64,000 nucleotides of DNA from Albidovulum sediminis (GTDB lineage Bacteria; Pseudomonadota; Alphaproteobacteria; Rhodobacterales; Rhodobacteraceae): contig NZ_JAOCQF010000001.1 of the NCBI RefSeq assembly GCF_025380365.1, positions 2,034,245 through 2,098,244 of the forward strand. The letters are read 5' to 3'. The notes below the pieces were generated by a model. It had not been told where the DNA came from, made no database searches, and worked only from the letters and a program-made list of their open reading frames with translations. Shown here piece after piece: positions 17,387 to 63,323 of this stretch (positions are counted from its first letter, which is position 1; each line of letters opens with the position of its first letter). Both the position numbers and the translations under genes were made by a program.

Positions 17387-18400
17387 ATGATGACCACGAA
17401 CCCGCCCCTGTCGAAGCTATCCGTGTCGCCCAACCGGCGCCGGCGATCCGATTTCGTGATCGTCAGCGCATTGCTGCTGCTGTTCCTGGCGGGCCTCGTG
17501 GGGCTCGCCGCCGCAACCGGCTGGGAGGAGACGGCAGCGCAGGTCGCGCGGCTCTCGATGGTGCAGATCGCGGTTCTGCTTGGCCTGTCGATGGCGAACT
17601 ACCTGCTGCGAACCCTTCGCTGGCACGTCTTTGCCCGGCGGCTCGGCCTGCCGGTTTCGCCCGCCCAGTCGCTTCGCCATTACCTGGGCGGGTTCGCGAT
17701 GAGCGTGACGCCCGGTCGCGTGGGGGAACTGGTCCGGATGCGCTGGCTGGCGCGCGAGACCGGGTGGAGCGTGGAGCGCACCGCGCCGCTTGCCCTTGTC
17801 GACCGCGCGGCGGACCTTGCGGTGATGGCGCTGATCCTGGCGCTGGCGGTGTCGCTGGCAACCGGCGGCATGGGCGGCGGGCTTGCGGTGGCTGCGCTTG
17901 CGCTGCTCGTCGCCTTTGCCGCCACCCGGCCCCGGCTGGTGGCGGCCCTGGTCACGGCGGGCTATCGCCTGACCGGGCGCCTGCCGCGCCTGTTCGCGCG
18001 CGCCCGAATCGCCGCCCGCTCGCTGCATCGCTTCGGCCATCCGCCCGCGCTTGCGGCGGCACTCGCGCTCGGCTTTGCGGGATGGTTCGCGGAAGGCTAC
18101 GCCTTTCATCTTCTCCTTGGCTGGATGGGCAGCGACATCGGCCTGTGGAAGGCCGTGGGCATCTTCGTCTTCGCCACGCTCGCGGGCGGGCTGACCGGCA
18201 CGCCGGGCGGGGTCGGCGGCGCCGAGGCGGCGATGATCGCGCTCCTCGCGCTTGAGGGCGTGCCGATGGAGGTTTCGGTGCCGGCAACGGCGGTGATCCG
18301 GGTGACGACGCTCTGGTTCGCGCTCGCGCTCGGGATCGCCGCCTTCCCGCTGGCTGAACGGTGTTCGACAAGGGGGCGCGATGCGCTGGAAGACCGCTGA
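17387..18400 (+). CDS. Lysylphosphatidylglycerol synthase-TM/UPF0104 family membrane protein (possible lipid-sugar flippase)
   Basis: 337 aa, about seven to eight membrane segments. Family marks are NYLLRTLRWHVFARRLG near residue 65, FAMSVTPGRVGELVRMRWL near residue 105 and GLTGTPGGVGGAEAAMIALL near residue 267. It lacks the catalytic acyl/aminoacyl-transferase domain of MprF, so only the flippase-like part is present. The gene overlaps the DprE1-like gene by 20 bp. A role in moving a polyprenyl-linked sugar across the membrane fits the neighbours but is inference. Start may be 17387 or 17390. Confidence 0.82.
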   Translation: MMTTNPPLSKLSVSPNRRRRSDFVIVSALLLLFLAGLVGLAAATGWEETAAQVARLSMVQIAVLLGLSMANYLLRTLRWHVFARRLGLPVSPAQSLRHYLGGFAMSVTPGRVGELVRMRWLARETGWSVERTAPLALVDRAADLAVMALILALAVSLATGGMGGGLAVAALALLVAFAATRPRLVAALVTAGYRLTGRLPRLFARARIAARSLHRFGHPPALAAALALGFAGWFAEGYAFHLLLGWMGSDIGLWKAVGIFVFATLAGGLTGTPGGVGGAEAAMIALLALEGVPMEVSVPATAVIRVTTLWFALALGIAAFPLAERCSTRGRDALEDR

Positions 18401-19694
18401 ATTTGCCGGCTGGGGCCGTGCACTGAGCGCGCGGAGCGACGTCGCACGCCCCGAGCGGCGCCGCACGCTGGATGAGATTCTGGCCGATGGCCTCGTTCCC
18501 GCGATGGGGATGCGGCGCAGCTATGGCGACGCGGCACTCAATGCGGGCGGCCGCGCCGTCGACATGACCCGGCTCGACCGGCTGATCGCCTTCGATCCCG
18601 CGACCGGGGAGCTAGAGGCGGAGGCCGGGGTGCAGGTCGGCCAGCTGGCCGCAATCTTCGCGCCGCGCGGCTGGCTGCCGCCGGTCATGCCCGGCACCGG
18701 CTTCGCGACGCTGGGCGGCTGCATCGCGCAGGACGTCCACGGCAAGAACCACCACCACGCCGGCAGTTTCTGCCAGCACGTCACCGCGATCCGGCTCCGC
18801 ACCGCCGCGGGAGTGGTCGAGGTGACGCCCGAGGGCACGCCGGACCTGTTCCGCGCGACCGCCGGCGGGCTTGGCCAGACCGGCGTGATCCTGTCGGCGA
18901 CGCTGCGGCTGATGCCGGCCAAGGGCGACGTGATGATCGTCACCGAACGGCGGATCGACGACTGGGACGAGCACATCGCCATGCTCGACGCCTCGCGCGC
19001 GACCTACACAGTGGGCTGGATCGACGCGACGGCGACCGGCGCGGCGCTGGGCCGCGGGATACTCGAGGAAGGGGAGACCGGATCGGGTCTTGTGCCAAAG
19101 CGCGCAAACTCCCGCAAAGTGCCCTTCGATGCGCCGCGCTTCGCGCTTTCGGCGCCGGTGGTGCGGGCCTTCAACCAGCTTTACTGGCGCCGCGTGCCGG
19201 AATCCGGGCGCACCGTCGTCAAGCCCATCGGCGATTTCTTCTTTCCGCTCGACAAGATCCACGACTGGAACCGGCTTTACGGCAAGGCCGGCTTCCACCA
19301 GTTCCAGTGCGTCGTACCGCTTGCCGCGGCCGCGGACCTGCGCGCGATGCTGGAGGCGATCGCGGGCTCGGGCCTCGCCTCGCCGCTTGCCGTGCTCAAG
19401 CGCATGGGGCCGGGCCGGGCGGGATACCTGTCGTTCCCGATGGAGGGCTACACGCTGGCCGTCGACTTCCCCAACCGGGCCGGCGCGCGCGAACTGATCG
19501 CGCGCCTGATCGAGCGGACACGAGGCGCAGGCGGGCGGGTCTATTTCGCCAAGGACAGCCTGGCGCGGGCCGCGGACGTTCCGGCGATGTATCCCGAGCT
19601 TGACGCCTGGCAGGCCGTCGCCGCCAAGGCGGATCCGGATCGCGCGCTGTGCACCGACATCGTCCGGCGGCTGAAACTCAGGGGGGCGGCATGA
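18381..19694 (+). CDS. DprE1-like FAD-dependent polyprenylphosphoryl-ribose 2'-oxidase
   Basis: 437 aa vanillyl-alcohol-oxidase-fold flavoprotein. The FAD domain holds MRRSYGDAALN, then PGTGFATLGGCIAQDVHGKNH, closely resembling the HGKNH segment of mycobacterial DprE1. The C-terminal half has the substrate-domain signature SGLASPLAVLKRMGPG and YTLAVDFPN. DprE1 oxidises the 2'-OH of decaprenylphosphoryl ribose; DprE2 then reduces the ketone to arabinose. A DprE2-like gene overlaps its stop (ATGA). Sugar lactone oxidase is the alternative, but the neighbours favour DprE1. Confidence 0.82.
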   Translation: MRWKTAEFAGWGRALSARSDVARPERRRTLDEILADGLVPAMGMRRSYGDAALNAGGRAVDMTRLDRLIAFDPATGELEAEAGVQVGQLAAIFAPRGWLPPVMPGTGFATLGGCIAQDVHGKNHHHAGSFCQHVTAIRLRTAAGVVEVTPEGTPDLFRATAGGLGQTGVILSATLRLMPAKGDVMIVTERRIDDWDEHIAMLDASRATYTVGWIDATATGAALGRGILEEGETGSGLVPKRANSRKVPFDAPRFALSAPVVRAFNQLYWRRVPESGRTVVKPIGDFFFPLDKIHDWNRLYGKAGFHQFQCVVPLAAAADLRAMLEAIAGSGLASPLAVLKRMGPGRAGYLSFPMEGYTLAVDFPNRAGARELIARLIERTRGAGGRVYFAKDSLARAADVPAMYPELDAWQAVAAKADPDRALCTDIVRRLKLRGAA

Positions 19695-20428
19695 ACCGGA
19701 CCTGGATCGTTCTTGGCGCCACCTCGGCGATGGCGTGCGCCTTCGCGCGGCAAGTCGCCTCCGATGGCGCGGCGGTGCTGCTCGCCGGGCGCGACGGCGA
19801 GGACCTGGCGGCCCTGGCGGCCGACTGCGCCCTGCGCGGCGCGCGGCTGGCGGAACCCGTCGCCTTCGACGCGCGCGATCCCGCGGGCTTCGCGGCCCTC
19901 ATCGAGCGCGCGCGGGCCGAGGACGGGGAGATCAACGCCGCCGTCTTCGTCGGATCGATGCCCGCGCAGGGCGCCATCGACGCCGACCCCGCGCTGATCG
20001 ACGGCACGGTGACCGACAGTTTCACCGGCCCCGCGCGGTTCCTGCACCTTCTCGCCCCGGTGATCGAGGAGCGCGGCATGGGCACCGTCGTCGGTGTCGG
20101 ATCGGTCGCGGGCGACCGCGGACGGCTCGGCAACTATGTCTATGGCGCGGCGAAGGCGGGGTTCCACACCTATCTGTCGGGCCTCAGGAACCGGCTGACG
20201 CGCGCGGGCGGGCATGTGGTGACGGTCAAGCCCGGCTTCGTCGATACCGCAATGACCTGGGGCCTGCCCGGCATGTTCCTTGTCGCCTCGCCGGAAAAGG
20301 TGGCCGCCGACATCCTGAAGGCCGTGCGCCGTCGGCGCAACGTGATCTACACGCCCGCCTTCTGGGCGCTGATCATGCTGATCATCCGCCACATTCCCGA
20401 GCCCATCTTCAAGAAGATGAAGATCTGA
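19691..20428 (+). CDS. DprE2-like short-chain dehydrogenase
   Basis: 245 aa SDR. The N-terminal LGATSAMACAFARQVASDG is a TGxxxGxG variant, and the catalytic YVYGAAKAG (Tyr and Lys) follows GVGSVAGDRG near residue 145. Unusually for a cytosolic SDR, it ends in a hydrophobic ALIMLIIRHIPEPIFKKMK tail, as DprE2 proteins do, suggesting membrane attachment. It should reduce the 2'-keto intermediate made by the preceding oxidase. It overlaps that gene by four bases and converges on the UbiA gene 3 bp away. Confidence 0.83.
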   Translation: MNRTWIVLGATSAMACAFARQVASDGAAVLLAGRDGEDLAALAADCALRGARLAEPVAFDARDPAGFAALIERARAEDGEINAAVFVGSMPAQGAIDADPALIDGTVTDSFTGPARFLHLLAPVIEERGMGTVVGVGSVAGDRGRLGNYVYGAAKAGFHTYLSGLRNRLTRAGGHVVTVKPGFVDTAMTWGLPGMFLVASPEKVAADILKAVRRRRNVIYTPAFWALIMLIIRHIPEPIFKKMKI

Positions 20429-20431
20429 GGC

Positions 20432-21862
20432 TTAACCGAACCACTGTTGCCACAGGCCGGCCGCCCAGAACATCAGGCTGAGGATCAGCATCAGCAGACC
20501 CAGCCCCACCGGATCGCGCAGGGCAAAGACGATGGGGTCGTAGTCCTGGCGCCCGTGCCAGGCCAGGTTGACCATCCGGACCATCCAGATCGCCATCGGC
20601 ACCATGGCCGCCCACAGAAGCCATGTGGTGGGATAGAGCGTGGTCCCCTGATCGGACACCGAGTAGAGCAGGAAGATGACAAGCGCGCCAACGACACCGA
20701 TGCCCGCGACGTTGCGCAGGTCGGCCAGGTCAGCGCGGCCGTATCCCCGCCCGGGCAGGGTCTCGTTACCGGTCGCCCGGGACAGTTCGGTGATCCGCTT
20801 CACGCAGCCGAGCGTGAAGAAGATCGGGAAAACGAAGATCAGCATGTAGATGGAGACCTCCACCGCCGCGGCGGAGGCGCCCGCCACGACGCGGATCGTA
20901 TACAGCGCTGCCAGCATGGTGACATCGACCCATCGCGTCCGCTTCAGCCTGAGCGAATAAGCCAGCGACAGCGCCATGTAGAGCAGCGTCACCAGAAGGA
21001 ACCCGGGCGAGAGGAGAACCGCGATCAGCAGGGCCGCGGCGCCAAGCCCGACCATCGCCGCCATGCCCACGCCGATCGGCACCGCGCCCGAGGCGAAGGC
21101 CCGGCGGCACTTCGTCGGATGCAGGCGGTCGGCCTCCAGGTCCAGAAGATCGTTGGCGATATAGATGGTCGATGCCGCCAGCGAAAACGCGGCCATCCCC
21201 CAGAGGATGGGAACAAGCGTGTCCAGCCCGAAGCGGTGCGAGGCCAGCATGGGCAGCAGCAGAAGGACGTTCTTCACCCACTGATGCGGCCGCATCGCAC
21301 GCAGGAGCGCGCGGAAGGTCCAGCCGCCCGGAAGTTCGACGACGTTGTGCCCGTTGGCCGCCAACGCGCGGGCCGAGGGGACGTGGCCCACGACAAGCGC
21401 GTTTTCGGCCTTTTCCCAGACCGGAATATCCACCGCACCGTTTCCGGCATAGTCGAAGCCGCCTTCGCCGTAGGCATCGACCAGCGCCTTCGCCTTCGCG
21501 GGGCCCTTGAGGTTGGTCACGCCATCCGATGCGAAGACCCGCTCCGAAAAGCCGTAGTCCGCGGCCAGCCGGGCGACCAGACTGCGGTCGCCGGCCGAGG
21601 CCAGAACGACCTCGCGCCCGGCAAGGCGGCTTTGCAGCGCCAACTCGGCCACCTCGGCGTTCACCGGCAGCAGGTCGGTGCGCAAGGGCGCGATCTGCAC
21701 CAGCTCGGCCTTGAGTGCGGCCGGATCGCGCAGATGGCGCAGGGTCGCCAGCAACGTGCGCAGCGGCGCGGTGCCCATGCCCGCCCAGAAATTCTCATGC
21801 AGCATGTCGGTGCGCAGGAACGTGCCATCCACGTCCAGAACCAGCGGCTTTTCGATGGTCAT
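20432..21862 (-). CDS. HAD phosphatase-UbiA fusion, polyprenyl-phosphate phosphoribosyltransferase-like
   Basis: 476 aa from ATG 21862 (MTIEKPLVLDVDGTF); the longer start adds an unconserved tail. Residues 1-175 are a HAD domain with nucleophile motif DVDGT at 10-14. Residues about 190-476 are a UbiA domain with about nine helices, MRPHQWVKN at 190-198 and NDLLDLEADRLHPTK at 237-251, which closely matches the NDxxDxxxDxxHPTK motif of mycobacterial Rv3806c, the PRPP-using 5-phosphoribosyltransferase. The HAD part could remove the 5-phosphate afterwards. It converges on the DprE2-like gene and is not in its operon. Confidence 0.82.
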   Translation of the reverse strand: MTIEKPLVLDVDGTFLRTDMLHENFWAGMGTAPLRTLLATLRHLRDPAALKAELVQIAPLRTDLLPVNAEVAELALQSRLAGREVVLASAGDRSLVARLAADYGFSERVFASDGVTNLKGPAKAKALVDAYGEGGFDYAGNGAVDIPVWEKAENALVVGHVPSARALAANGHNVVELPGGWTFRALLRAMRPHQWVKNVLLLLPMLASHRFGLDTLVPILWGMAAFSLAASTIYIANDLLDLEADRLHPTKCRRAFASGAVPIGVGMAAMVGLGAAALLIAVLLSPGFLLVTLLYMALSLAYSLRLKRTRWVDVTMLAALYTIRVVAGASAAAVEVSIYMLIFVFPIFFTLGCVKRITELSRATGNETLPGRGYGRADLADLRNVAGIGVVGALVIFLLYSVSDQGTTLYPTTWLLWAAMVPMAIWMVRMVNLAWHGRQDYDPIVFALRDPVGLGLLMLILSLMFWAAGLWQQWFG

Positions 21863-21869
21863 TCCGTCC

Positions 21870-22736
21870 TCATCCGTTCGCGGCGAACACGCAGCCGTCG
21901 GAGACCAGCTCCGGCGGTGTGACGCAAAGACCGCGCGCCACCATCCAGGCGGCAAGGACCTTGGGCACGTAGTTGCGCGTCTCGGCGTAGGGCGGCACGC
22001 CGCCCGCGCCCTTCACCGCGTTCTCACCCGCGTTGTATGCGGCCAGCACCATCAGGGGATCGCCCCCGAACTCTCCCATCAGCCAGTCGAGATAGGCCAC
22101 GCCGCCGCGGATGTTGTCGGACGGGTCCATCCTGTCGACAACACCGAACCGCTCGGCCGTCGCAGGGATCAGCTGCATCAGCCCCGCCGCCCCCGCGTGC
22201 GAGACGGCATCGGTGCGGCCTGCGCTTTCGACCGAGATGACAGCAAGGGCCAGCGCCGGCGACACCTGCGTGCCGATGGTTGCGCGCATGATCTCGCGCC
22301 CGTGCAGAAGCGCGATGTCCTGGAGCGATTGCAGCCGCGGCGCACCCACCTGCGCGCCGTCCGGCCCCTGCGTCAACGCCAGCAGCGCCTGCGAAAAACG
22401 ACCGGGGGAATCGGCGATCGCGGGGGAAACCAGTGTCCAGTACCACCCATAGTCGCCGCCGCCACCGCCGGAGGGAGGCACCGGCAGCAGGCCGGGAGCG
22501 GCCGCACCGCGGGGAATCGGGTTTTCAGGCGGGGGCAGAACGCCGGCCAGACGGCGGGATTGTTCGGCCGGATCGATCTGCACGGTGATTCTCTTCCGGG
22601 TTGAGGTTCCCGGCGCGCCGATTCGCTTGAAGGTGAACTGTTCGTAGCCGGAGGGCACGCCTTGCGCCGCATCCTGTGCCGCAGCGCCAGCGCATGACAG
22701 CACAACTGCAAGTCCCGAAAGGACAATCCGCTTCAT
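21870..22736 (-). CDS. Lytic transglycosylase (SLT domain), exported
   Basis: 288 aa from ATG 22736 (MKRIVLSGLAVVLSCAG), which gives a clean signal peptide; the 22 residues upstream look untranslated. A Pro/Gly-rich linker spans residues about 65-95. The SLT domain has catalytic Glu170 in ISVESAGRTDAVSHAGAAGLMQLI-type context and the AYNAGENAV motif near residue 240. It cleaves peptidoglycan glycan strands to 1,6-anhydro ends. It ends 8 bp before the UbiA start on the same strand, so the two may be co-transcribed. Confidence 0.9.
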   Translation of the reverse strand: MKRIVLSGLAVVLSCAGAAAQDAAQGVPSGYEQFTFKRIGAPGTSTRKRITVQIDPAEQSRRLAGVLPPPENPIPRGAAAPGLLPVPPSGGGGGDYGWYWTLVSPAIADSPGRFSQALLALTQGPDGAQVGAPRLQSLQDIALLHGREIMRATIGTQVSPALALAVISVESAGRTDAVSHAGAAGLMQLIPATAERFGVVDRMDPSDNIRGGVAYLDWLMGEFGGDPLMVLAAYNAGENAVKGAGGVPPYAETRNYVPKVLAAWMVARGLCVTPPELVSDGCVFAANG

Positions 22737-23076
22737 CTGACCCGATCCGCCCGCTTGGCTTTTTCGGTGAATGTCCCAGAATCCGGCTGATTTTGCCAGC
22801 ATTGAGATGCCGCAGCCCCGCAGATGCCCGTGCCGGCAAGCCTTTCGGCAACAGAACTCGTGTCAGTTTGCGGAAGGAATCGCGACAAACCGGATGACGA
22901 AAGTCGGATTACCACACGAATTCCCCTCAATGAGCGTGAAAATGTACCGGACGGAACAAACTCTTGCCACGGTTTGGGGGCGAAATGCACTTACACCGCA
23001 GGCGATCGGGCTTCAGGCAAAGCCACCCCGTGAGAACGCAGCGGATGGTCAAGAGAGCGAAACCTGGAGAAGTGAC
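22737..23076. other. 340-bp intergenic region between transglycosylase and pilin genes
   Basis: It separates divergent genes and so should hold promoters for both. I see no coding region with family features, and no clear sigma-70 or sigma-54 pair. A good ribosome site (GGAGAAG, 23066-23072) precedes the pilin ATG. An upstream in-frame extension of the pilin (from 22771) has no pilin character and is not translated in my view. Confidence 0.5.
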
Positions 23077-23262
23077 ATGAAGCTGTTCAAACTCGCGAAG
23101 AAATTCTGGCAGTCCGAAGATGGTGCCGTGACGGTTGACTGGGTCGTTCTGACCGCCGCCGTCGTGATCCTCGGCATCCTCGCCCTCAACTTCGTCCGTT
23201 CGGGCGTCGGCGCGGCGTCGCAGGAAATCGACACCTACCTGTCGGCGATCACGATCCAGTAA
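23077..23262 (+). CDS. Flp-type pilin 1 (class III prepilin, short form)
   Basis: 61 aa. A basic leader (KLFKLAKKFWQSEDG) ends in Gly16, the prepilin-peptidase site, followed by AVTVDWVVLTAAVVILG, one hydrophobic helix, and a short C-terminus ending YLSAITIQ. This is the architecture of Flp/Fap pilins of Tad systems, but the usual Glu5-Tyr6 pair of the mature pilin is Asp5-Trp6 here. It has its own terminator and a paralogue 260 bp downstream. It is the probable major subunit of the Tad locus 1 fibre. Confidence 0.85.
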   Translation: MKLFKLAKKFWQSEDGAVTVDWVVLTAAVVILGILALNFVRSGVGAASQEIDTYLSAITIQ

Positions 23263-23322: not shown

Positions 23323-23524
23323 CCGCGATACTGATTTTCTAGCTGCATTCCGGACGGCCTGGCCTGCGCAATCATATGGCGAATTTTGGCAGAATTTTCA
23401 CGCAAGGGTCGCAGTTCTTCCAAAGACCCGCCTCAGAATTGCCATCCTTGTAAAGGCTAATCGGGAAAGCTGCGCTGGCGCGGTATGATCGGCCGGTACT
23501 TTTAGGTGCGTGGGAGTCATAGGG

Positions 23525-23710
23525 ATGATGATGCTCAAGAAGTTCAGGAAGTTCGCGGCAGCCGACGCTGGCGCGGTGACGGTTGACTGGGTCGTGCTGA
23601 CCGCGCTGGTCGTGGTGCTGGGCATATGGGCGCTCTCGCTCTATACGCGCGGCACATTGAAGGCGGCGGACGAGGTCGATCTCTACCTTTCGGCCATCAC
23701 CATCCAGTAA
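23525..23710 (+). CDS. Flp-type pilin 2
   Basis: 61 aa from ATG 23525, chosen because GGGAG (23512-23516) sits 8 nt upstream and because the length then equals pilin 1; the ATG at 23510 adds five residues. The leader ends AAADAG, cleavage is before AVTVDWVVLTALVVVLG, and the C-terminus YLSAITIQ is identical to pilin 1. The Asp5-Trp6 pair is again present. Leaders and middle parts differ from pilin 1, so this is not a recent duplication. It may be a second or alternative pilus subunit. Confidence 0.83.
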   Translation: MMMLKKFRKFAAADAGAVTVDWVVLTALVVVLGIWALSLYTRGTLKAADEVDLYLSAITIQ

Positions 23711-23922: not shown

Positions 23923-24801
23923 ATGCGGTTGGTATTCGGCCTGGTTTTGATCGTCGGGCTCGGCCTGGCGGGGTTCGCCGTCTACATGGCGCAGGGTCTG
24001 ATCGAGAAGAACCAGCGCGAAAGGGATCTGCTTCTGGCTGCGCAGGCCAAGGCGACGAAGCTTGTGGACGTCGTCGTTGTGACGCGCAACCTGGCCTATG
24101 GCGAGCGCTTCACATCCGCCGATCTGGGCACCGTCAAATGGGAAGAGGGCAAGGTACCCGCGGGCGCCTTCTCCGTCATCACCGCGCCGGTTGCCGAGGT
24201 CGCCGAGAAGAAGCCGGTCTTCGCCGACAACGAAACCCGTCCGCGCGCCGTGCTGCGCAGCTATGAACCCTTCGAGCCGCTGCTGGCCTCGAAGATCACC
24301 GAGCCGGGCATCGACGCGGGCATCATGTCCAGCCTGACGGCGGGGATGAGCGCCTTTTCGATCAACGTCGATGTCTCGACCGCCGTCGCGGGCTTCCTGC
24401 GCCCGGGCAACGTCGTGGACATCTACTGGACCGGCCGCGTGGGCGACAGCGAGACGACCAAGCTGATCGACAGCGGGGTGCGGCTGATCGCGATCAACCA
24501 GAGCTCCGACGCCGACCGCACCGAGGAAACGATCATCGCCCGCACGGTGACGATCGAGGGCAGCCGCCAGCGCGTCGCCTCGCTCGCCCTGGCCCAGCAG
24601 ACGGGCAAGCTTTCGCTGTCGCTCGTCGGCGGGGACGGCACGGCAGCCGCGGTCGCCGAGGCGCCGGTCGAGATCAACCGCGATACGCTCCTCGGGATCG
24701 AGAGACAGGAAGTGGTGCAGGTCGAGGAAGAGAAAGTCTGCAAGATCCGCACCAACAAGGGCGGCGAGATCGTCGAGACGGTCATCCCCTGCACCAATTG
24801 A
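23923..24801 (+). CDS. cpaB: Flp pilus assembly protein CpaB
   Basis: 292 aa. An N-terminal membrane anchor or signal (LVFGLVLIVGLGLAGFAVYM) is followed by an SAF domain (VDVVVVTRNLAYGERFTSADLG, about residues 47-68) and an RcpC/CpaB domain with AFSINVDVSTAVAGFLRPGN near residue 145. CpaB supports the outer-membrane secretin of Tad systems in the periplasm. A two-Cys C-terminus (EKVCKIRTNKG and VIPCTN) may form a disulphide. ATG follows AGGAAAGG. It is 212 bp after pilin 2 and 209 bp before cpaC. Confidence 0.93.
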   Translation: MRLVFGLVLIVGLGLAGFAVYMAQGLIEKNQRERDLLLAAQAKATKLVDVVVVTRNLAYGERFTSADLGTVKWEEGKVPAGAFSVITAPVAEVAEKKPVFADNETRPRAVLRSYEPFEPLLASKITEPGIDAGIMSSLTAGMSAFSINVDVSTAVAGFLRPGNVVDIYWTGRVGDSETTKLIDSGVRLIAINQSSDADRTEETIIARTVTIEGSRQRVASLALAQQTGKLSLSLVGGDGTAAAVAEAPVEINRDTLLGIERQEVVQVEEEKVCKIRTNKGGEIVETVIPCTN

Positions 24802-24818
24802 CGACGGCAGGGGGCGCC

Positions 24819-24854
24819 GGACCGTTGGCCACAAGATCGGGTGGCCAACGGTCC
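24819..24854 (+). repeat. 14-bp perfect inverted repeat between cpaB and cpaC
   Basis: GGACCGTTGGCCAC and GTGGCCAACGGTCC flank an 8-nt loop, 18 bp after the cpaB stop. No T-run follows, so it is not a classical terminator. It could be a 3' stabiliser, a processing site or a Rho-linked stop between cpaB and the 156 bp leader of cpaC. Confidence 0.6.
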
Positions 24855-25010
24855 GCAAAGCGCTAGGGTTATAGCACTGTTGCGGTATCCCCACATAAGG
24901 AAAGCAACCCAAATCTTTGATTATTGCAAAAAATTGAGACTTCCCGCATTGTTGCGGCAATGGGCAGAAGACCCGAACCAATATGGACGCCAAAAAAGAG
25001 GCACGAGAAC

Positions 25011-26411
25011 ATGAGCGTCAAGACAGTGATCCACGCGGGGGTGGTGGGCTTCGCGCTCGCCGTGACGGTTTCCCCTGCAGCCTATTCGGAAACCCTGAAG
25101 GTTCTGGAAGGTTCCACCGCAGCTCCCCTGACGGTCCCGATGAACCGGGCCGTCGTCGTCGAGGCTGACCAGCCCTTTGCCGAGCTTTCCATCGCAAACC
25201 CCGGAATCGCCGACATCTCGACGCTTTCGGACCGCACGATCTACGTTCTCGGCAAGGCGCCGGGGCGCACGACGATGACGCTTCTGGGGCCCGAGGGGCA
25301 ACTGATCGCCAACGTCGACGTGCAGGTCTCGCTCGACGTGGCAGAGTTCAAGGAACGCCTTCAGCAGATCCTTCCGGGCGAAAAGATCGAGGTGCGCACC
25401 GCGAACGACGGCATCGTCCTGTCGGGCGTCGTGTCGTCGATCGCAAGGCTTGACCGCGCCCTTGACCTGGCCGACCGCTACGCGCCGGGCCGGGTGTCGA
25501 ACCTGATGAGCGTGGGCGGAACCCAGCAGGTCATGCTGCACGTCCGCTTCGCCGAAATGCAGCGGTCGGTCTCCAAGAGCCTGAACGGGTCGTTCGGCTT
25601 CATCGGGACCGATGTGCTCGGTGGCGCCGGCAACCTCGACTCGATCAACAGCGTGATCGGCGGAGGCGCCCCGATTACCGACCAGTTCGGCACCGTCGGC
25701 GTGCGCTTCTCGGCCGGCAGCGTCGAGATGGCGGCAACGCTCGAGGCGCTTGAGGGCAAGGGCCTGATCCGCACGCTCGCCGAACCGAACCTGACCGCCC
25801 TGTCTGGGCAAGAGGCGAAGTTCCTTGCCGGCGGCGAATACCCGATCCCGATCCGCGAGGGCGACGGCCAGGACAGCAGCGTCACCGTCGAATTCAAGCC
25901 CTTCGGCATCGAACTGGCGTTCACCCCGCGCGTGGTCGACGGCGACGTGATCAACCTGGCGCTCAACACCGCGGTTTCGGGCCTCGACTCCGACGTCAGC
26001 GTCACCGCCGGCGGCATCAGCGTGAACGCCTTCCGCCGCCGTGAGGCGGAAACCACCGTCGAGATGCATGACGGCGACAGCTTCGCGATCGCCGGCCTCC
26101 TGCAGGACGACTTCCGCGACAGCAACAACCAGGTGCCGTGGCTGGGCGACATTCCGATCCTTGGCGCGCTCTTCCGCAGCGCCGAATACCAGCGCAACCA
26201 GACCGAGCTTGTGGTGATCGTCACTGCCCACCTCGTGTCGCCGATCCGGGGCGAAGCCCTGGCGCTTCCCACCGACCGCGTGAAACCGCCTTCAGAAGCG
26301 CAGTTGTTCCTGCTGGGGCAAACTGCCGCGAACGGATCGTCCGCGACCGGTGGTGCGGCCGAGGTCGCGCGCCAGGACTTTTCCGGCGCCTACGGCTATG
26401 TGATGGAGTAA
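25011..26411 (+). CDS. cpaC: Tad secretin CpaC/RcpA
   Basis: 466 aa from ATG 25011, where a signal peptide begins (MSVKTVIHAGVVGFALAV, cleavage near AYSE); the start at 24924 adds a non-signal stretch. An N-terminal pilus-type N0 domain (APLTVPMNRAVVVEA), a BON-like region and the secretin domain are visible, with VPWLGDIPILGALFRS near residue 375 as the secretin signature. It forms the outer-membrane pore for the Flp fibre. The C-terminal 50 residues are not conserved and are Ala-rich. OmpA-type lipoprotein gene follows after 4 bp. Confidence 0.94.
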   Translation: MSVKTVIHAGVVGFALAVTVSPAAYSETLKVLEGSTAAPLTVPMNRAVVVEADQPFAELSIANPGIADISTLSDRTIYVLGKAPGRTTMTLLGPEGQLIANVDVQVSLDVAEFKERLQQILPGEKIEVRTANDGIVLSGVVSSIARLDRALDLADRYAPGRVSNLMSVGGTQQVMLHVRFAEMQRSVSKSLNGSFGFIGTDVLGGAGNLDSINSVIGGGAPITDQFGTVGVRFSAGSVEMAATLEALEGKGLIRTLAEPNLTALSGQEAKFLAGGEYPIPIREGDGQDSSVTVEFKPFGIELAFTPRVVDGDVINLALNTAVSGLDSDVSVTAGGISVNAFRRREAETTVEMHDGDSFAIAGLLQDDFRDSNNQVPWLGDIPILGALFRSAEYQRNQTELVVIVTAHLVSPIRGEALALPTDRVKPPSEAQLFLLGQTAANGSSATGGAAEVARQDFSGAYGYVME

Positions 26412-26415
26412 GACG

Positions 26416-27096
26416 ATGCGCAGCCATGTGAAACTCTTGCTTCTCTCCGCCGGCATCCTCGCCCTTGGCGCCTGTTCGAAGGAAACCAACGCGATGCGCG
26501 CCTTCTACGGAGAGGCGGGCAGCGAGGTCGAGACCAGCGATTTCGGCAATGCGACGCGGAACAACACCGCGCTGCAGACCGGCTCGATCAACCAGCTGGT
26601 GAACATGACGCGCAAGTTCGCGGCCGATGTTCCGAACACGGTGAACTTCGCCTTCGACAGCGCGGTTCTGGACGAGGGCGCCCGCGCGGCACTTGTCCAG
26701 CAGGCCAACTGGATCAAGCAGTTCCCCGAAATCCGCTTCCGTGTCTACGGTCACACCGACCTTGTCGGATCGGACGCCTACAACAAGTCGCTGGGCTTGC
26801 GTCGTGCGCAGGCGGCGGTCAACTTCCTGATCGGCCAGGGCATTTCCCGCTCGCGGCTCGAGGCGGTGGCATCCTTCGGCGAGACACAGCCACTGGTCTT
26901 CGTGCAGACCGAGGAACGCCGCAACCGCCGCACCGTGACCGAGGTTTCGGGCTTTGTCGCGACCAACCCGCTGCTTCTGAACGGCAAGTATGCCCAGGTC
27001 ATCTTCCGCGAATACGTGGAAAGCGCGACCCCTCCGCATGCACAGGCCGATGCCGCACCCGGTGCGGGCGGCGACGGCGGCGGCAGCGGCGGCTGA
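26416..27096 (+). CDS. OmpA-family lipoprotein of the Tad locus (CpaD-position protein)
   Basis: 226 aa. Lipobox LGAC at Cys20 gives an outer-membrane lipoprotein. Residues about 70-190 are an OmpA_C domain: NFAFDSAVLDEGARAAL, VYGHTDLVGSDAYNKSLGLRRAQAAVNFL and a final RRNRRTV, which bind peptidoglycan. It occupies the place where other Tad loci have cpaD/tadG-like wall-contact proteins, so it may anchor the secretin to the wall. The C-terminus is Gly-rich. A strong terminator closes this cpaC-ompA unit. Confidence 0.88.
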   Translation: MRSHVKLLLLSAGILALGACSKETNAMRAFYGEAGSEVETSDFGNATRNNTALQTGSINQLVNMTRKFAADVPNTVNFAFDSAVLDEGARAALVQQANWIKQFPEIRFRVYGHTDLVGSDAYNKSLGLRRAQAAVNFLIGQGISRSRLEAVASFGETQPLVFVQTEERRNRRTVTEVSGFVATNPLLLNGKYAQVIFREYVESATPPHAQADAAPGAGGDGGGSGG

Positions 27097-27120
27097 ACGA
27101 GTCAAATCCTCTCAATCGAG

Positions 27121-27158
27121 CTGGCGGTCTTTGGCAACAAAGGCCGCCAGTTTTTTTT
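27121..27158 (+). terminator. Strong intrinsic terminator after the OmpA-type gene
   Basis: CTGGCGGTCTTTG pairs with CAAAGGCCGCCAG (one G-T wobble) around GCAA and is followed by eight T. It divides Tad locus 1 into an outer-membrane unit (cpaB-ompA) and a motor unit starting with cpaE. Confidence 0.95.
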
Positions 27159-27343
27159 ATCGTCTCCAAACACCCCATTAATTCGACATTTCGGCCCCAT
27201 TCTTGCCAACATTCTCAACGATTTTCGGAACTCGGGAACACGCGCGAGGAGTCGCGCCGGGCTGGTCACCAGACCTGAGATTGAAACGAAACAGTTTCGG
27301 ACGGGTCCGTTCGGGCTCTCCGGGTAAAGAGGAATGTAGGACC

Positions 27344-28588
27344 ATGAGAAGTGCCGCGGCTGTGCAGTCGGAACCTGCGCCGATCATCGCCTGCACGGTG
27401 TCGCGCGATGTGAGCGATTTCGATCTGCTGATCGAGGACATGGAAGCCGAACTTGGCGAAAGCTGGGGCGACCTGACATTCGAGGATGCGCAGGTCTTTC
27501 TCGGCCAGCCGGAAGCGGACGCGCTGCAGTTCATCGCCATCGCCGTGGACGGCCAGGACGATGAAAGCATGTCCCGGATCGCCGGCATCATCGCGGCGGC
27601 GAAGGCCAAGCATCTCAAGGTCATCCTGATCGCCGAAGACGTTAGCCCGATGGCGCTGCACCAGCTGCTGAAGCTCGGCGCCGACGATTTCGTGCCCTAT
27701 CCGCTGCCCGAAAACGCGCTGCACGAGGCGATCGACCGCATTCGCCGCACCCCGGTCGCCACCGAGCTTCAGGAATACACCCCCGCGGCCCGTTCGAAAG
27801 GGGACCGCGACGGCATGATCCTTCCGGTTCATGGGCTGGCCGGCGGCACGGGGTCGACGACCTTTGCCGTCAACCTTGCCTGGGAACTCGCGATCTCGAA
27901 CAAGAAGAACCCGCCGAAGGTCTGCCTGATCGACCTCGACTTCCAGTACGGCTCGGTCTCGACCTATCTCGACCTGCCCCGCCGCGAAGCCGTGTACGAG
28001 ATGCTGTCGGAGACCTCGAAGCTCGACCGCGACACCTTCATGCAAAGCACGCTGACCTTCAACGACCGCATGCATGTCCTGACCGCGCCGGCCGACATGC
28101 TGCCGCTCGACATCGTGCAGTCCGAGGACATCAACCGCATCCTGGACCTCGCGCGGTCGCACTTCGACTTCGTCGTTGTCGACATGCCGAAGACCGTGGT
28201 TCAGTGGACCGAGGCGGTGCTGCACAAGGCGAAGGTCTATTTCGGCATCATCGAGCTTGACATGCGCTCTGCGCAGAACACGCTGCGCGTCATCCGCGCG
28301 CTCAAGGCCGAGGATCTGCCGTTCGAGAAGCTGCGCTACGTCCTGAACCGCGCGCCAAGCTTTACCGACCTGACCGGCAAGGGCCGCGTAAAGCGGCTGG
28401 CCGAAAGCCTCGACATCTCGATCGAGATCCAGTTGCCGGACGGCGGAAAACCGGTCACGCAATCCAACGACCATGGCCTTCCGCTGGCCGAGACCGCGAG
28501 CAAGAACCCGCTTCGCAAGGAGATCGGGAAGCTTGCCACCTCACTTGTCCAACTGCAGCAGCAGAAAGCCGAAGCGGCCGCTTCCTGA
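27344..28588 (+). CDS. cpaE: CpaE/TadZ, MinD/ParA-like pilus localisation ATPase
   Basis: 414 aa from ATG 27344; the longer frame from 27203 crosses the promoter region. Residues about 1-135 are a degenerate receiver-like domain (VILIAEDVSPMALHQLLKLGADDFV). Residues 158-400 are a deviant-Walker ParA/MinD domain with GLAGGTGSTTFAVNLA at 164-179, where both signature lysines are replaced, and DLDFQYGS and FVVVDMPKT. It places the Tad machine at a cell pole. It begins the motor operon, 247 bp after the preceding stop, with a CGAAAC-A-GTTTCG palindrome at 27287-27299 upstream. Confidence 0.93.
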   Translation: MRSAAAVQSEPAPIIACTVSRDVSDFDLLIEDMEAELGESWGDLTFEDAQVFLGQPEADALQFIAIAVDGQDDESMSRIAGIIAAAKAKHLKVILIAEDVSPMALHQLLKLGADDFVPYPLPENALHEAIDRIRRTPVATELQEYTPAARSKGDRDGMILPVHGLAGGTGSTTFAVNLAWELAISNKKNPPKVCLIDLDFQYGSVSTYLDLPRREAVYEMLSETSKLDRDTFMQSTLTFNDRMHVLTAPADMLPLDIVQSEDINRILDLARSHFDFVVVDMPKTVVQWTEAVLHKAKVYFGIIELDMRSAQNTLRVIRALKAEDLPFEKLRYVLNRAPSFTDLTGKGRVKRLAESLDISIEIQLPDGGKPVTQSNDHGLPLAETASKNPLRKEIGKLATSLVQLQQQKAEAAAS

Positions 28589-28603
28589 ACCCCGGGGGTT
28601 TGA

Positions 28604-30052
28604 ATGTTCTCTCGATACAAGAAATCCGCACCCGCTGCCAAACCCCAGCAGGAGGCGCCGAAGGCCGCGCCGGACAAGTCCGCGCAGACCGCCGGATCGG
28701 GCATGCAGAGCGTCCGCCGCCAGACCGGCAACCACCTGGTTCCGGCGCATCCCGGCGTGTCCGACAAGGACCGCAAGCGCAAGGAACGGATGCAGGAGCT
28801 GAAGGTCGAACTGCACAAGCGGCTGCTGGACAACCTGAACCTGTCGGCGCTGGAACATGCCAGCGAAAGCGACCTGAAGCAGGAAATCGCCTCAATCTCT
28901 GCCGAAGCACTGGAAGAGCTGAGCGTCGTGCTGAACAAGGACGAGCGCGCGGCGCTGCACCAGGAGCTTTACGACGAGGTGATGGGCCTCGGCCCGCTGG
29001 AGCCGCTCCTCAAGGACGATGGCGTCAACGACATCCTCGTGAACGGCCCGCAGCAGATCTTCATCGAACGCGCGGGCAAGCTCGAACTGACCGACATCAC
29101 CTTCAAGGACGAACGCCACCTGCTGCGCATCATCGACAAGATCGTGTCGGCGGTCGGCCGGCGGGTCGATGAATCGAACCCCTATTGCGACGCCCGCCTT
29201 GCCGACGGGTCGCGCTTCAACTGCATGGTGCCGCCGATCGCGGTCGACGGCTCGCTTGTCTCGATCCGGAAATTCAAGAAGGACAAGCTCGGCATCGACG
29301 ACCTTGTCCGCTTCGGCGCCTTCACCGAGGAGATGGCCGCCTACCTGCAGGCCGCTGTCGCCACCCGCCTGAACGTGATCGTCTCGGGCGGTACGGGTTC
29401 GGGCAAGACGACGACGCTCAACGCGCTGTCGTCCTTCATCGACAACTCCGAACGCATCCTGACGATCGAGGATACGGCGGAACTCCAGCTTCAGCAGACC
29501 CATGTCGGCCGGATGGAAAGCCGCCCGCCGAACGTGGAAGGCAAGGGCGCGGTCACCCAGCGCGACTGTCTCAGGAACGCGCTCCGGATGCGCCCCGACC
29601 GCATCATCGTCGGCGAAACCCGCGGCGAGGAAGTGATCGACATGCTTCAGGCCATGAACACCGGCCACGACGGGTCGATGACGACGATCCACGCCAACTC
29701 CGCCCGAGACAGCATCTCGCGTCTGGAAAACATGGTGGCGATGGCCGGGATCGAGATGCCGATCAAGGCGATCCGCAGCCAGATCGCCAGCGCCGTCAAC
29801 CTGATCGTGCAGGCGAGCCGCCTTCAGGACGGCTCGCGCCGGATGACCTCGATCACCGAGATCACCGGGATGGAAGGCGATGTCATCTCGATGCAGGAGA
29901 TCTTCCGCTACGAACGGCTCGGCCTGACCCCCGAGGGCAAGATCATCGGCCGCTTCACGGCAACAGGCGTGCGGTCGCACTTCTCCGACCGGTTCCGCCA
30001 GTGGGGCTATGATCTTCCCGCCTCCATCTACGATCCCATCGCGGCGGAGTAA
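28604..30052 (+). CDS. cpaF: CpaF/TadA secretion ATPase
   Basis: 482 aa hexameric secretion ATPase. The N-terminal region is charged and Pro/Gln-rich; the PAS-like domain spans about 130-250 ([17 protein letters not shown]). Walker A is [14 protein letters not shown] (about 259-272), the Asp box [12 protein letters not shown], Walker [18 protein letters not shown], and the His box [17 protein letters not shown]. It powers both fibre extension and retraction in Tad systems. It lies 15 bp after cpaE. Confidence 0.97.
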
Positions 30053-30057
30053 CGACC

Positions 30058-31026
30058 ATGATCCTCAGCCCGACGCCGATCATCTATGCCCTGATCTTCA
30101 TTGCCGTCCTGCTGCTGGTCGAGGGGATCTATCTTCTCTTCTTCGGCAAGTCGATTTCGCAGAACAACAAGGTGAACCGCCGGCTTGCGCTTCTGGAAAA
30201 GGGCGGGCAGCGCGAGCAGGTCCTGGAACAGCTTCGCAAGGAAGCCAGCCAGCACCTGAAATCGAAGGGCATCCCGCTTTATTCGATCCTCGCCTCGAAG
30301 GCCCAGAAGGCCAACATCGCCTTTTCGCCGAAGGCGCTGGTGCTGGTCATGGTCCTGCTGTCGGCCGTCGCCTTCCTGGGGCTCAAGATCGGCACGCAGG
30401 CCGCGACCCCGGTACAGATCGTGCTCGGCATCGCGATGGGCGTGGGCGCGGTCTACATCTGGGTGAACGGCAAGGCCAAGAAACGGCTGTCGATGATCGA
30501 GGAGCAACTGCCCGAGGCCATCGAACTGATGGTCCGGAGCCTGCGCGTCGGTCACCCGTTCTCCTCCGCGATCCAGATCGTGGCGAAAGAGGTGGCGGAC
30601 CCGCTGGGAAGCGAATTCGGCATGATCGCCGACGAAAGCGCCTATGGGCGCGAAGTTTCCGAGTCGCTCAAGGACCTGGCAGAGCGGATGGACATGCAGG
30701 ACCTGCGCTTCCTTGCCGTGGCAGTGACGATCCAGCAGCAGTCGGGCGGCAACCTTGCCGAAATTCTCGACGGTCTGGCCAAGGTGGTTCGCGCGCGCTT
30801 CCGGCTGTTCCGCAGGGTCAAGGCGATCACGGCCGAAGCCAAATGGTCGGGCAACTTCCTGTCGGCCTTCCCGCTGGTCGCGCTGGTCGCGATCCAGGTG
30901 GTCAAGCCGGACTATTTCGACAAGGTCAAGGAAAGCCCGTACTTCATCTACGCCGCCATCGGCGTGGCCATCATGCTGGCGCTGAACCTCGTGTTCATGC
31001 GCATCATGACGAACATCAAGGTCTGA
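30058..31026 (+). CDS. tadB: Inner-membrane platform protein TadB
   Basis: 322 aa T2SS-F domain protein. Two N-terminal helices (about 4-24 and 95-137) and two C-terminal helices (about 268-320) bracket the cytoplasmic domain with LPEAIELMVRSLRVGHPF and DMQDLRFLAVAVTIQQQSGGNLAEIL. It forms a heteromeric platform with TadC that CpaF turns. It starts 5 bp after the cpaF stop. Confidence 0.95.
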   Translation: MILSPTPIIYALIFIAVLLLVEGIYLLFFGKSISQNNKVNRRLALLEKGGQREQVLEQLRKEASQHLKSKGIPLYSILASKAQKANIAFSPKALVLVMVLLSAVAFLGLKIGTQAATPVQIVLGIAMGVGAVYIWVNGKAKKRLSMIEEQLPEAIELMVRSLRVGHPFSSAIQIVAKEVADPLGSEFGMIADESAYGREVSESLKDLAERMDMQDLRFLAVAVTIQQQSGGNLAEILDGLAKVVRARFRLFRRVKAITAEAKWSGNFLSAFPLVALVAIQVVKPDYFDKVKESPYFIYAAIGVAIMLALNLVFMRIMTNIKV

Positions 31027-31035
31027 GGCCCCGAC

Positions 31036-32022
31036 ATGGAACTGATCGACACGCTCAACGCGCTTCTGACCGAGAAACTCGGTCCCCTCGGCCCCCTGAT
31101 CGCGGTCGGGTTCCTGGGCTTCCTGATGATCCTCGTCACCCTGCCGACCTTCATCCGCCGGCGCATCGACCCGCTGAGCAAGCTGCGCGATGCGCGGCGC
31201 GCCGCGGGGGGTGATCTTGCCAAGTCGCAGGCGAAACTGCGCACGAGCGGACGCGGCGAAAAGCTGGACAAATTCGCGGCCTTCCTCGAACCGAAGACCG
31301 AAGAGGAAATGACCTCGGCCCGGCTGAAGCTGATGCGGGCGGGCTACCGCGGCAAGCATGCCGTGCGATCGTTCCACGCCATCCAGTTCGTCCTGGGCGT
31401 GTCGTTCCTGCTGATCGGCGCGGGTTATGTGCTATACAAGTCCACGACCGGAGAGATCGGCAGCACCGAACTGGCGCTGTTCGGCGTCGGCCCGGGTATC
31501 GCGGGCTACTTCCTGCCGCGCTACTGGGTGGAGCGGCGCGTGCAGATGCGCCAGCAGGAGATCCAGAACGGCTTTCCCGATGCGCTCGACATGCTTCTGG
31601 TCTGCGTCGAGGCCGGCCAGTCGCTTGACCAGGGGATCGTGCGCGTCTCGCGCGAGATCGCGGTGGGCTACCCTGCCCTGTCGGAGGAACTGACCACGGT
31701 TTCCGCCGAGGTGAAGGCCGGCAAGGAAAAGACCTCCGTGCTGCGCGCCTTCGCCGAACGTGCCGGGGTGGCGGACGTGTCGTCCTTCGTCACCGTGATG
31801 ATCCAGTCGCAGACCTTCGGCACCTCGATCGCCGAGGCGCTGCGCGTCTACGCCTCCGAGATGCGGGACAAGCGCGTCATGCGGGCGGAAGAAGCCGCGA
31901 ACAAGCTGCCGACCAAGATCACGCTCGGAACCATGATGTTTACGGTGCCGCCCCTGCTGATCGTCATTGTCGGCCCGTCGGTCTACGCTATGGTGGAGAC
32001 GTTCGCGAACTTCAAAGTGTAG
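31036..32022 (+). CDS. tadC: Inner-membrane platform protein TadC
   Basis: 328 aa T2SS-F domain protein. The conserved segment FPDALDMLLVCVEAGQSLDQG around residue 180 and SFVTVMIQSQTFGTSIAEAL around residue 255 are those of TadC rather than TadB. Membrane helices are near residues 20-38, 115-160 and 295-325. It is 9 bp after tadB and is followed 4 bp later by the first TPR lipoprotein gene. Confidence 0.95.
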   Translation: MELIDTLNALLTEKLGPLGPLIAVGFLGFLMILVTLPTFIRRRIDPLSKLRDARRAAGGDLAKSQAKLRTSGRGEKLDKFAAFLEPKTEEEMTSARLKLMRAGYRGKHAVRSFHAIQFVLGVSFLLIGAGYVLYKSTTGEIGSTELALFGVGPGIAGYFLPRYWVERRVQMRQQEIQNGFPDALDMLLVCVEAGQSLDQGIVRVSREIAVGYPALSEELTTVSAEVKAGKEKTSVLRAFAERAGVADVSSFVTVMIQSQTFGTSIAEALRVYASEMRDKRVMRAEEAANKLPTKITLGTMMFTVPPLLIVIVGPSVYAMVETFANFKV

Positions 32023-32026
32023 GTTC

Positions 32027-32596
32027 ATGCTGCGTCAGATACCGGCCCTTGCCGCCGTGCTGCTTGCTCTGGCCGCCTGTCAATCGACGGGCGGCCTTTT
32101 CGGCACGCCGGATTCCCCCTTCGCCCCGGACATCGACACGTCATCGGACGACGCCGTGGATGGCCTGATCGTGGGTCACCGGCTGATGGCGGCGGGGGAG
32201 TACGAGCTGGCGCTCAAGGCCTATCATCGCGCCGCCTCGCAACAGGGCGCGACGGTCGACGTCTATTCTGCCATCGGTTCGGCCAACCTGCAGCTCGGCC
32301 GCCTTGGTCAGGCAGAGACCAACCTGCGCGACGCGATCGAGATCGACGAAACTTTCGTGCCCGCCTGGAACAACCTCGGCGTCGTGCTGATGGAGAAGGG
32401 CGAGGTCGCCGAGGCGAGCCAGGTGTTCCAGACGGCATTCGCGCTGGACAGTGGCCGAACGGACTCCATCCGCGAAAATCTGCGCCGCGCCCTCGCCATG
32501 CGCGATGATCCAGACTATGGTATCACCCACCAAGAAGAACAATTCTCACTCGTGCGGCGCGGTGGCGGTGTCTACCTTCTGCTCACGGTGAAATGA
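32027..32596 (+). CDS. tadD: TPR lipoprotein TadD (first copy)
   Basis: 189 aa from ATG 32027; the longer frame from 31967 overlaps tadC. Lipobox LAAC at about residue 18 gives a lipoprotein. Tetratricopeptide repeats span about residues 50-155, with AGEYELALKAYHRAAS and VPAWNNLGVVLMEKGEVAEA. TadD is the pilotin-like partner that helps CpaC reach or assemble in the outer membrane. Its stop overlaps the next frame (ATGA). Confidence 0.9.
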   Translation: MLRQIPALAAVLLALAACQSTGGLFGTPDSPFAPDIDTSSDDAVDGLIVGHRLMAAGEYELALKAYHRAASQQGATVDVYSAIGSANLQLGRLGQAETNLRDAIEIDETFVPAWNNLGVVLMEKGEVAEASQVFQTAFALDSGRTDSIRENLRRALAMRDDPDYGITHQEEQFSLVRRGGGVYLLLTVK

Positions 32597-32622
32597 GGCC
32601 TGAGCAGCAAGGGACGCAGAAA

Positions 32623-33474: not shown

Positions 33475-33497
33475 CACTCAAGGGGAGATACCGGCAG

Positions 33498-35701: not shown

Positions 35702-35821
35702 TTTTTGGCCACATTACCTGCGCAGGATCACCATGGGAATCCTCTGCGGGATTCTGGCGTAAGAACCGGGCAGCAAAACGGACAAATCCGAACCGATTGC
35801 GGGCATGAGGGGGTCAGGTCG

Positions 35822-57546: not shown

Positions 57547-57549
57547 GGT

Positions 57550-58479: not shown

Positions 58480-58684
58480 CTCGTGACATCATCCACTACC
58501 CGATCAAAAGGTAGGACGCAGGCATGGGAGGGTCAATGTTCGGACACAATCGCCGGGGGAATGGCCCCCAAATACAACCCTGAGCAGAAATTTTGAAGCG
58601 TTTCCCGGACCAGTTTCGCCCCTTTCCGGAAATTGTTCGCAAGCATCGCTGCAAATCGCCGCTGTGACGGCCCGGCAGCCCGAC

Positions 58685-59692: not shown

Positions 59693-59704
59693 CACACTCT
59701 CCAA

Positions 59705-62063: not shown

Positions 62064-62074
62064 GGTCGAACCTC

Positions 62075-63283: not shown

Positions 63284-63323
63284 ATGCTTGCCTTTCTTTC
63301 CCGGCCGTTCGATGAGTCAGGGG

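Follow-up and report, generated by a model that had tools for sequence, protein, structure and literature searches.

We analysed a 64,000-nucleotide stretch of the Albidovulum sediminis genome (contig NZ_JAOCQF010000001.1, positions 2,034,245 to 2,098,244; hereafter the window), in which a tad/Flp pilus locus is bordered at one end by a four-gene cassette for the predicted synthesis of a lipid-linked pentose and at the other by the gene of a 578-residue membrane protein, P0001, with a predicted GT-C fold. The cassette (17387-21862) encodes a UPF0104/LPG_synthase_TM membrane protein (17387..18400, plus strand; PF03706 150.3 bits, TIGR00374 81.5 bits), a candidate flippase of the lipid-linked pentose; a DprE1-like flavin adenine dinucleotide (FAD) oxidase, putatively a polyprenyl-phosphoryl-ribose 2'-oxidase (18381..19694, plus strand); a DprE2-like short-chain dehydrogenase/reductase (SDR; 19691..20428, plus strand), whose start overlaps the DprE1 stop; and a fusion of a HAD phosphatase with a UbiA phosphoribosyltransferase, of the PRP-PPPRS type (20432..21862, minus strand). 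The ends of the first three genes overlap in series on the plus strand, and the UbiA gene faces them. A previous sequence-only reading of this DNA had proposed these four genes, and all of them were recovered in this interval, together with the two motifs it had picked out in their products, HGKNH and NDLLDLEADRLHPTK. P0001 (33965-35701, minus strand) lies tail-to-tail with the A24 prepilin peptidase gene at the opposite end of the tad locus, 12 kb from the cassette.

The cassette enzymes were identified from curated models, PDB matches and conserved residues. The DprE1-like protein scores 398.8 bits with the NCBIfam DprE1 model NF053785 (cut-off 500, a value reached in none of 190 genomes of the class), and the next-best NCBIfam models, for a FAD-linked oxidoreductase and a sugar 1,4-lactone oxidase, score 61.2 and 51.8 bits. 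In the PDB table nine DprE1 sequences rank above six others, mycobacterial DprE1 being the best at E 5e-82. Residues H120, K122, N123 and K391 are invariant among 40 aligned proteins (the window protein and those of 39 of the 40 loci given), and the protein retains the HGKNHH segment and the AKDS lysine, both of which we presume to be functional. The position that we take to be that of the inhibitor-binding cysteine of mycobacterial DprE1 is A360 here, and it is alanine in 40 of 40 aligned proteins. The DprE2-like protein scores 158.2 bits with the NCBIfam DprE2 model (cut-off 250) and 260.9 bits with the SDR model PRK07102 (cut-off 267), in both cases below the cut-off; its closest solved relative is mycobacterial DprE2 (E 2e-24), the next following at 4e-15 and 30 bits lower, and S138, Y151 and K155 are invariant among 39 aligned proteins (the window and 38 of 40 loci given).

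The fusion protein scores 508.7 bits with PRK08238 (cut-off 351), a model that covers both halves (residues 4-468). Its residues 176-465 match the decaprenyl-phosphate phosphoribosyltransferase model PRK12324.1-4 at 140 bits (below the cut-off of 207), the 4-hydroxybenzoate octaprenyltransferase model gives 16.8 bits, and in the PDB only the Rv3806c entries 8j8j (E 6e-29) and 8j8k match strongly. A HAD phosphatase domain with DVDGT occupies about residues 8-147 (PF12710 21.3 bits, below the cut-off of 27); the homology to Rv3806c claimed by the earlier reading stands, and this N-terminal domain had been overlooked. All 41 aligned proteins (the window and 40 of the 42 loci given, the remaining loci being under 80% coverage) share D10, D12, N237, D238, D241, D245, R356 and E359, so that the window protein carries the N-D-x2-D-x3-D loop with the arginine and glutamate at +119 and +122. 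HAD-UbiA was found in 22 of 22 examined genomes of the genus, the own genome included. The profile scores rule out a quinone-type transferase or a lactone oxidase, the two placements that the earlier reading had regarded as fatal to it, and neither emerged from the profile and PDB searches. Its proposal of a lipid-linked pentose made from phosphoribosyl pyrophosphate (PRPP) is supported by homology; we consider the donor pathway described below very probable, and the lipid-carried pentose made from PRPP is most likely D-arabinose in the form of D-arabinofuranose (D-Araf).

P0001 was assigned from an AlphaFold2 model, Foldseek comparison and co-occurrence with the cassette. The model, built with 68 homologues from the loci, has a pLDDT (predicted local distance difference test) of 90.3 and a pTM (predicted template modelling score) of 0.92. 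Foldseek comparison with the PDB returned ALG3, ArnT, AftA, ArnT, AftB, OST and AftA at ranks 1-7, all GT-C, with probabilities of 0.87-1.00, E-values of 0.011-0.14 and query TM-scores of 0.27-0.40; talin followed at ranks 8-10 (probability 0.12-0.20), EmbA-EmbB at rank 11 (0.11) and DPY19 at rank 15 (0.47). By this prediction, P0001 has a GT-C fold. Two results weigh against the assignment: none of the 186 Foldseek matches reached E <= 0.001, and the family profile found no relative among PDB sequences, its two matches (E 0.16 and 2.3) being at chance level. A Pfam search of P0001 gave no match at E <= 1. The loop behind the first long helix (21-41) contains three conserved acidic residues: among 69 sequences D73 never varies, and E51 and D53 hardly do. 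In GT-C enzymes the catalytic residue is an acid in the first periplasmic loop, to which this one may correspond. With 55% identity, the nearest named records come from Defluviimonas sp. WL0075 and WL0002, in a comparison from which the own or a very near genome was possibly omitted. One genome (G407, locus L264) has two P0001 homologues in tandem at its tad locus, 35% and 38% identical to P0001.

The distribution of P0001 follows that of the cassette. In a set of 61 genomes of relatives, with DprE1 scored at E <= 1e-40, P0001 and DprE1 each occurred in 26 and both in 25; P0001 was found in 0 of the 24 genomes of other families. Of 198 genomes of the family, 60 have P0001 (E <= 1e-10) and 74 have DprE1 (E <= 1e-40), the DprE1 proteins comprising 54 close homologues (E <= 1e-130, or a contig-end fragment in G299) and 20 distant ones (43-49% identity); the line was drawn after viewing the table, at the gap between E 3e-139 and 6e-115. 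P0001 occurred in 54 of the 54 genomes with close DprE1 and in 6 of the 144 others (Fisher p 3e-42, uncorrected for relatedness). These six are G250, G332, G342, G343 (a weak match, 2e-11), G400 and G422, of which three carry the distant DprE1. Since 17 of the 20 genomes with the distant type lack P0001, the family probably has at least one further system of this kind. In a hand-picked set of 22 P0001 genomes from 80 loci (14 genomes plus all 8 whose P0001 has no tad genes next to it), DprE1 was found in 22, HAD-UbiA in 21 and TadB in 21, DprE1 being a fragment in G226.

Several genomes count against this joint inheritance. G019 has P0001 without a DprE1 match, and in G247 DprE1 is only 44% identical. 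The only HAD-UbiA match of G242 is 38% identical and located elsewhere, that of G229 is split over two frames, and in G230 a stop interrupts the matching region. G028 has a tad locus with DprE1 and P0001 and without HAD-UbiA, a 38% homologue lying on another contig, and G017 has HAD-UbiA and tad with no match to DprE1 or P0001. The converse case, a 43% DprE1 without P0001, occurs in G031. The G017 pattern would fit a cassette that ends at or yields polyprenyl-phosphoryl-ribose or another pentofuranose in place of D-Araf, as would the DprE1 and DprE2 scores below the curated cut-offs, which likewise speak against our assignment, and the occurrence of ribofuranose or xylofuranose in related systems (PMC11127046). 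We regard such a product as improbable, because mycobacterial enzymes are the best structural relatives of both DprE1 and DprE2 and the GT-C protein accompanies every close DprE1.

Between cassette and P0001, the tad/Flp locus spans about 23.1 to 34.0 kb. The cassette adjoins its Flp end, with the gene of an SLT lytic transglycosylase (21870..22802, minus strand; PF01464) in between; because 6 of 7 tad pieces without cassette have a homologue of the latter, it was counted as tad neighbourhood and not as part of the cassette. Two Flp pilins, both candidate acceptors, are encoded on the plus strand at 23077..23262 and 23510..23710; the first has the pilin motif and a hydrophobic segment, and a longer reading of it is without Pfam match. 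They are followed on the same strand (23923..34025) by genes for CpaB/RcpC, the CpaC secretin, an OmpA-like protein, CpaE, CpaF, TadB, TadC, two TPR proteins and the A24 prepilin peptidase (33498-34025; PF01478), identified by PF16976, PF13629/PF00263, PF00691, PF13614, PF00437, PF19360, PF00482, TPR models and PF01478, with CpaE, the PF13614 match, assigned by position.

Both gene sets keep these positions in most relatives. In 72 of 80 loci P0001 adjoins A24 and the TPR end of tad. The eight exceptions comprise two (L185, L202) in which the contig stops within 160 bases past P0001 and six in which the neighbours are other genes or tad genes are absent. On the opposite side, 23 HAD-UbiA pieces were fetched within the family, 20 with at least 45% identity and 3 with a UbiA relative of 37-38%. 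HAD-UbiA adjoins SLT in all 20 of the former, with Flp genes in 19 (L098 begins at a contig end) and DprE1 within the same piece in 12; the three distant relatives (L064-L066) have no tad gene there. TadB is present in 26 of the 26 P0001 genomes of the relatives set. Conversely, eight genomes (G017, G023, G025, G026, G027, G030, G031, G035) have family-type TadB (54-79% identity) without P0001, and all but G017 are also without the cassette at tad. In three of these seven pieces (L228, L229, L230) CoA-transferase genes adjoin SLT and A24 adjoins an AAA gene, so that both border sites are empty; in the remaining four the two borders are less clearly visible. A concatenated tree of CpaF, CpaE and CpaC (38 tips, rooted on G025 by choice and with G017 scored positive) requires at least four state changes by parsimony, and G027 and the G026/G023/G030 group are placed separately among the positives.

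P0001 is probably the transferase of the cassette. The sequence-only reading had stated that no arabinosyltransferase lies in the window, a statement not supported in view of P0001, which has a predicted GT-C fold and tracks the cassette. Alternatively, P0001 could be the GT-C enzyme of a separate pathway, with the cassette's true transferase elsewhere in the genome. The weak Foldseek E-values would allow this, as would the six P0001 genomes without close DprE1, three of them with the distant type, and the own genome was searched for one other GT-C family only (PMT_2, PF13231, none found). The joint presence of the two gene sets, their joint absence at two separate sites and the appearance of AftA and AftB among the fold neighbours of P0001 make it quite unlikely. 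On the preferred assignment, the missing transferase can now be named as a member of a GT-C-fold family without Pfam match, found in 60 of 198 family genomes, with a predicted donor and genetic partners.

The divergent neighbour of P0001 is an ATPase-like (AAA) protein of about 436 residues (open reading frame 35234-37132, plus strand, with an MNMQ start downstream of the frame's start). This gene stays beside P0001 even away from tad (L166, L179, L181, L205), and takes the place next to A24 in the pieces that lack P0001 (L228-L230). The window also holds another, divergent tad-like locus on the minus strand at 57055-63998, with a TadB about 33% identical at 59714-60640 and surrounding genes that are tad-like by appearance only; the cassette and P0001 flank the first tad locus and not this one.

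Because the cassette and P0001 sit at the two tad borders, the sugar is suggested to decorate the pilus or an item co-exported with it. Protein distances are compatible with an involvement of the pilus, no proof being intended. P0001 diverges fastest (mean distance 0.51, against 0.16-0.44 for the eight other proteins measured), and at fixed CpaF distance its partial correlation with Flp distance is the highest of seven proteins (r 0.85, 15 genomes), followed by CpaB (0.84), A24 (0.74), HAD-UbiA (0.63), DprE1 (0.59, 9 genomes), SLT (0.58) and CpaC (0.53). The correlation is unspecific, all seven proteins having p <= 0.006, and this weighs against reading it as a sign of pilus function. Several arrangements also count against the pilus reading: 6 of 80 loci, R. 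capsulatus included, have P0001 at a distance from tad; in R. capsulatus, where every part was found, and likewise in R. viridis, the components are spread over three places and HAD-UbiA alone is with tad; and in Marivivens donghaensis P0001, DprE1 and UPF0104 are kept, while TadB and HAD-UbiA were not found in the genome. In the last species (L173/L236) the front of dprE2 is fused to the back of a tad TPR gene in one open frame of 404 codons, an arrangement that we read as a deletion.

We also looked for an acceptor signature in the pilins. From 42 positive pieces given, two (L096, L226) were dropped as no pilin was obtained. Flp C-termini in many P0001-positive genomes are SSQTINTTF- or LSAITIQ-like. 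In 40 P0001-positive genomes the Ser/Thr count of the last ten Flp residues was no different from that in 6 cassette-negative ones (p 0.30), which is a further point against a pilin acceptor, and a Ser/Thr-rich C-terminus was accordingly rejected as a signature. Of two endings chosen post hoc, one occurs in 27 of 40 versus 1 of 6 genomes and the other in 10 of 40 versus 0 of 6. They are not counted as evidence; the former is also present in G017 and G031, both kept outside the comparison.

These observations bear on a different acceptor. The donor pathway and GT-C enzyme may be as described and serve a surface polysaccharide or lipopolysaccharide, the position at tad being an inherited neighbourhood without function. 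The characterised PRP-PPPRS system of C. youngae serves O antigens (PMC11127046), and the six P0001 loci away from tad and the lack of a signature in the Flp C-termini are in line with such an acceptor. Against it, TadB accompanies P0001 throughout the relatives set and in 21 of 22 genomes of the chosen set, where the exception resembles a tad deletion; R. capsulatus (L234) has HAD-UbiA with tad although DprE1 and P0001 are elsewhere; and in G024 P0001 lies 3 kb from TadB despite the Flp end being 1.6 Mb away. We judge a polysaccharide acceptor rather unlikely, and give a Tad-related acceptor about an even chance.

The candidate flippase was examined in clusters beyond the family. Among 17 fetched clusters, out of 23 from other families of the class with loci of at least 158 bits, a UPF0104 homologue lies directly beside DprE1, with UbiA, in four (L071, L072, L076, L079); no P0001 relatives were seen in the 17 pieces. 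It is plausible that the UPF0104 protein flips the lipid-linked pentose; a UPF0104 protein of P. aeruginosa has a predicted, unproven role as a glycolipid flippase (PMC12713373). Two loci (L258 in G001 and L260 in G002) encode an additional UbiA protein (40-42% identity with the UbiA half) next to a 633-residue protein with ten transmembrane segments and two small membrane proteins. A further neighbour there is, by its appearance, a candidate GT2 enzyme, and the set is perhaps another pentose system. A P0001 paralogue as partner of this second UbiA was considered and rejected: their genes are found at unrelated positions, and this UbiA already has a ten-segment neighbour of its own.

Taken together, we propose the following pathway, in which the enzyme activities, the identity of D-Araf, the flippase and the acceptor are what we infer from these data. 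The UbiA half would move 5-phosphoribose from PRPP onto polyprenyl (presumably undecaprenyl) phosphate, and the HAD half would take off the 5-phosphate to give polyprenyl-phosphoryl-ribose. Oxidation at C2 by DprE1 and reduction by DprE2 would then produce polyprenyl-phosphoryl-D-Araf, which the UPF0104 protein may flip to the periplasm, the least certain of the enzymatic steps. Finally, P0001 would pass the arabinofuranose to a periplasmic acceptor of the Tad system, most likely Flp or a minor pilin, in a manner comparable to TfpW. Whether the two-border gene set as a whole makes a lipid-linked pentofuranose and uses it for a Tad-associated acceptor is, in our estimate, an evenly balanced question. 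The fuller statement, that Rhodobacteraceae have a dedicated Tad (Flp) glycosylation in which a new GT-C family encoded at one border attaches D-Araf from the cassette at the other to Flp or minor pilins, we put forward tentatively. If true, it would mean a pentose modification of Tad pili, which are organelles of surface attachment.

Parts of this proposal have precedents. Preliminary work cited in PMC12307814 linked RcpC, a CpaB homologue, to the glycosylation of Flp, and glycosylated Flp as such is therefore no new idea. Likewise, candidate Araf systems with DprE1/E2 homologues have been reported (PMC11127046), so pentofuranose donor pathways of this type were already known outside the actinobacteria. 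The location outside the actinobacteria that the sequence-only reading had highlighted is not new, D-Araf on a Pseudomonas pilin, the (predicted) noe genes of Azorhizobium and proteobacterial O-antigen systems having been published. We found no description, in the literature searched, of a donor cassette and an unnamed GT-C-fold family paired across the two borders of a tad locus. In the titles and abstracts covered, a search that most subscription papers and all bioRxiv preprints fall outside, neither arabinose nor such a cassette is reported for Tad pili, and a term search of the main text of a study of Tad genes in Rhodobacterales (PMC8383342) found no mention of glycosyl, arabino, prenyltransferase, transglycosylase, flanking or FAD.

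Compared with the known systems, the mycobacterial decaprenylphosphoryl-arabinose pathway (Rv3806c, Rv3807c, DprE1, DprE2, Emb/Aft) has UbiA, DprE1 and DprE2 enzymes homologous to those of the window, and GT-C enzymes use the donor there, as is proposed here; it differs in an unrelated phosphatase and a proposed SMR-type flippase (PMC11127046), and its transferases resemble P0001 at the level of fold only. The noeCHOP genes of Azorhizobium, also an alphaproteobacterium, are predicted from their similarity to mycobacterial genes to provide a D-arabinose donor; noeC, noeH and noeO might yield the D-arabinose precursor, and the acceptor there is the Nod factor (PMC2443382). In Citrobacter youngae, the UbiA half of ORF15 yields polyprenyl-phosphoryl-ribose 5-phosphate from PRPP and the HAD half strips the phosphate (Kelly et al. 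2024, PMC11127046). The HAD-UbiA order is the same in the window, and the spacing from N237 to D238, D241, D245, R356 and E359 equals that from N247 to D248, D251, D255, R366 and E369 of ORF15. The three-component systems of C. youngae O1 and O2 (ORF15 PRP-PPPRS, a MATE flippase and GT136) likewise lead from PRPP to lipid-linked ribose and end with a GT-C enzyme, epimerases being optional (PMC11127046); here the synthase side and the GT-C protein are co-inherited, and the flippase is assigned by family membership only. The window has DprE1/DprE2 in place of the ORF13-type epimerase of C. youngae O2 (PMC11127046), a UPF0104 protein in place of MATE and a tad-bound locus in place of an O-antigen cluster, and its GT-C protein is without PDB or Pfam sequence match (the GT136 and TfpW sequences lay outside the comparison). 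A synthase of P. syringae with a C-terminal phosphatase domain is predicted to serve pilin Araf (PMC11127046). A parallel to the proposed acceptor is the type IV pilin of P. paraeruginosa PA7/Pa5196, which carries D-Araf oligomers made via PSPA7_6245-6251 and attached by TfpW, a modification that confers resistance to pilus-specific phages (PMC12369383, PMC11841053). That system has a type IVa pilin, a separate phosphatase and a transferase encoded with the pilin gene, whereas the window has a Tad/Flp locus, a fused phosphatase and a candidate transferase at the far end. Both would nevertheless share a PRPP-derived lipid-linked D-Araf and a GT-C enzyme, and in P. paraeruginosa the acceptor is a pilin (PMC12369383, PMC11841053, PMC11127046).

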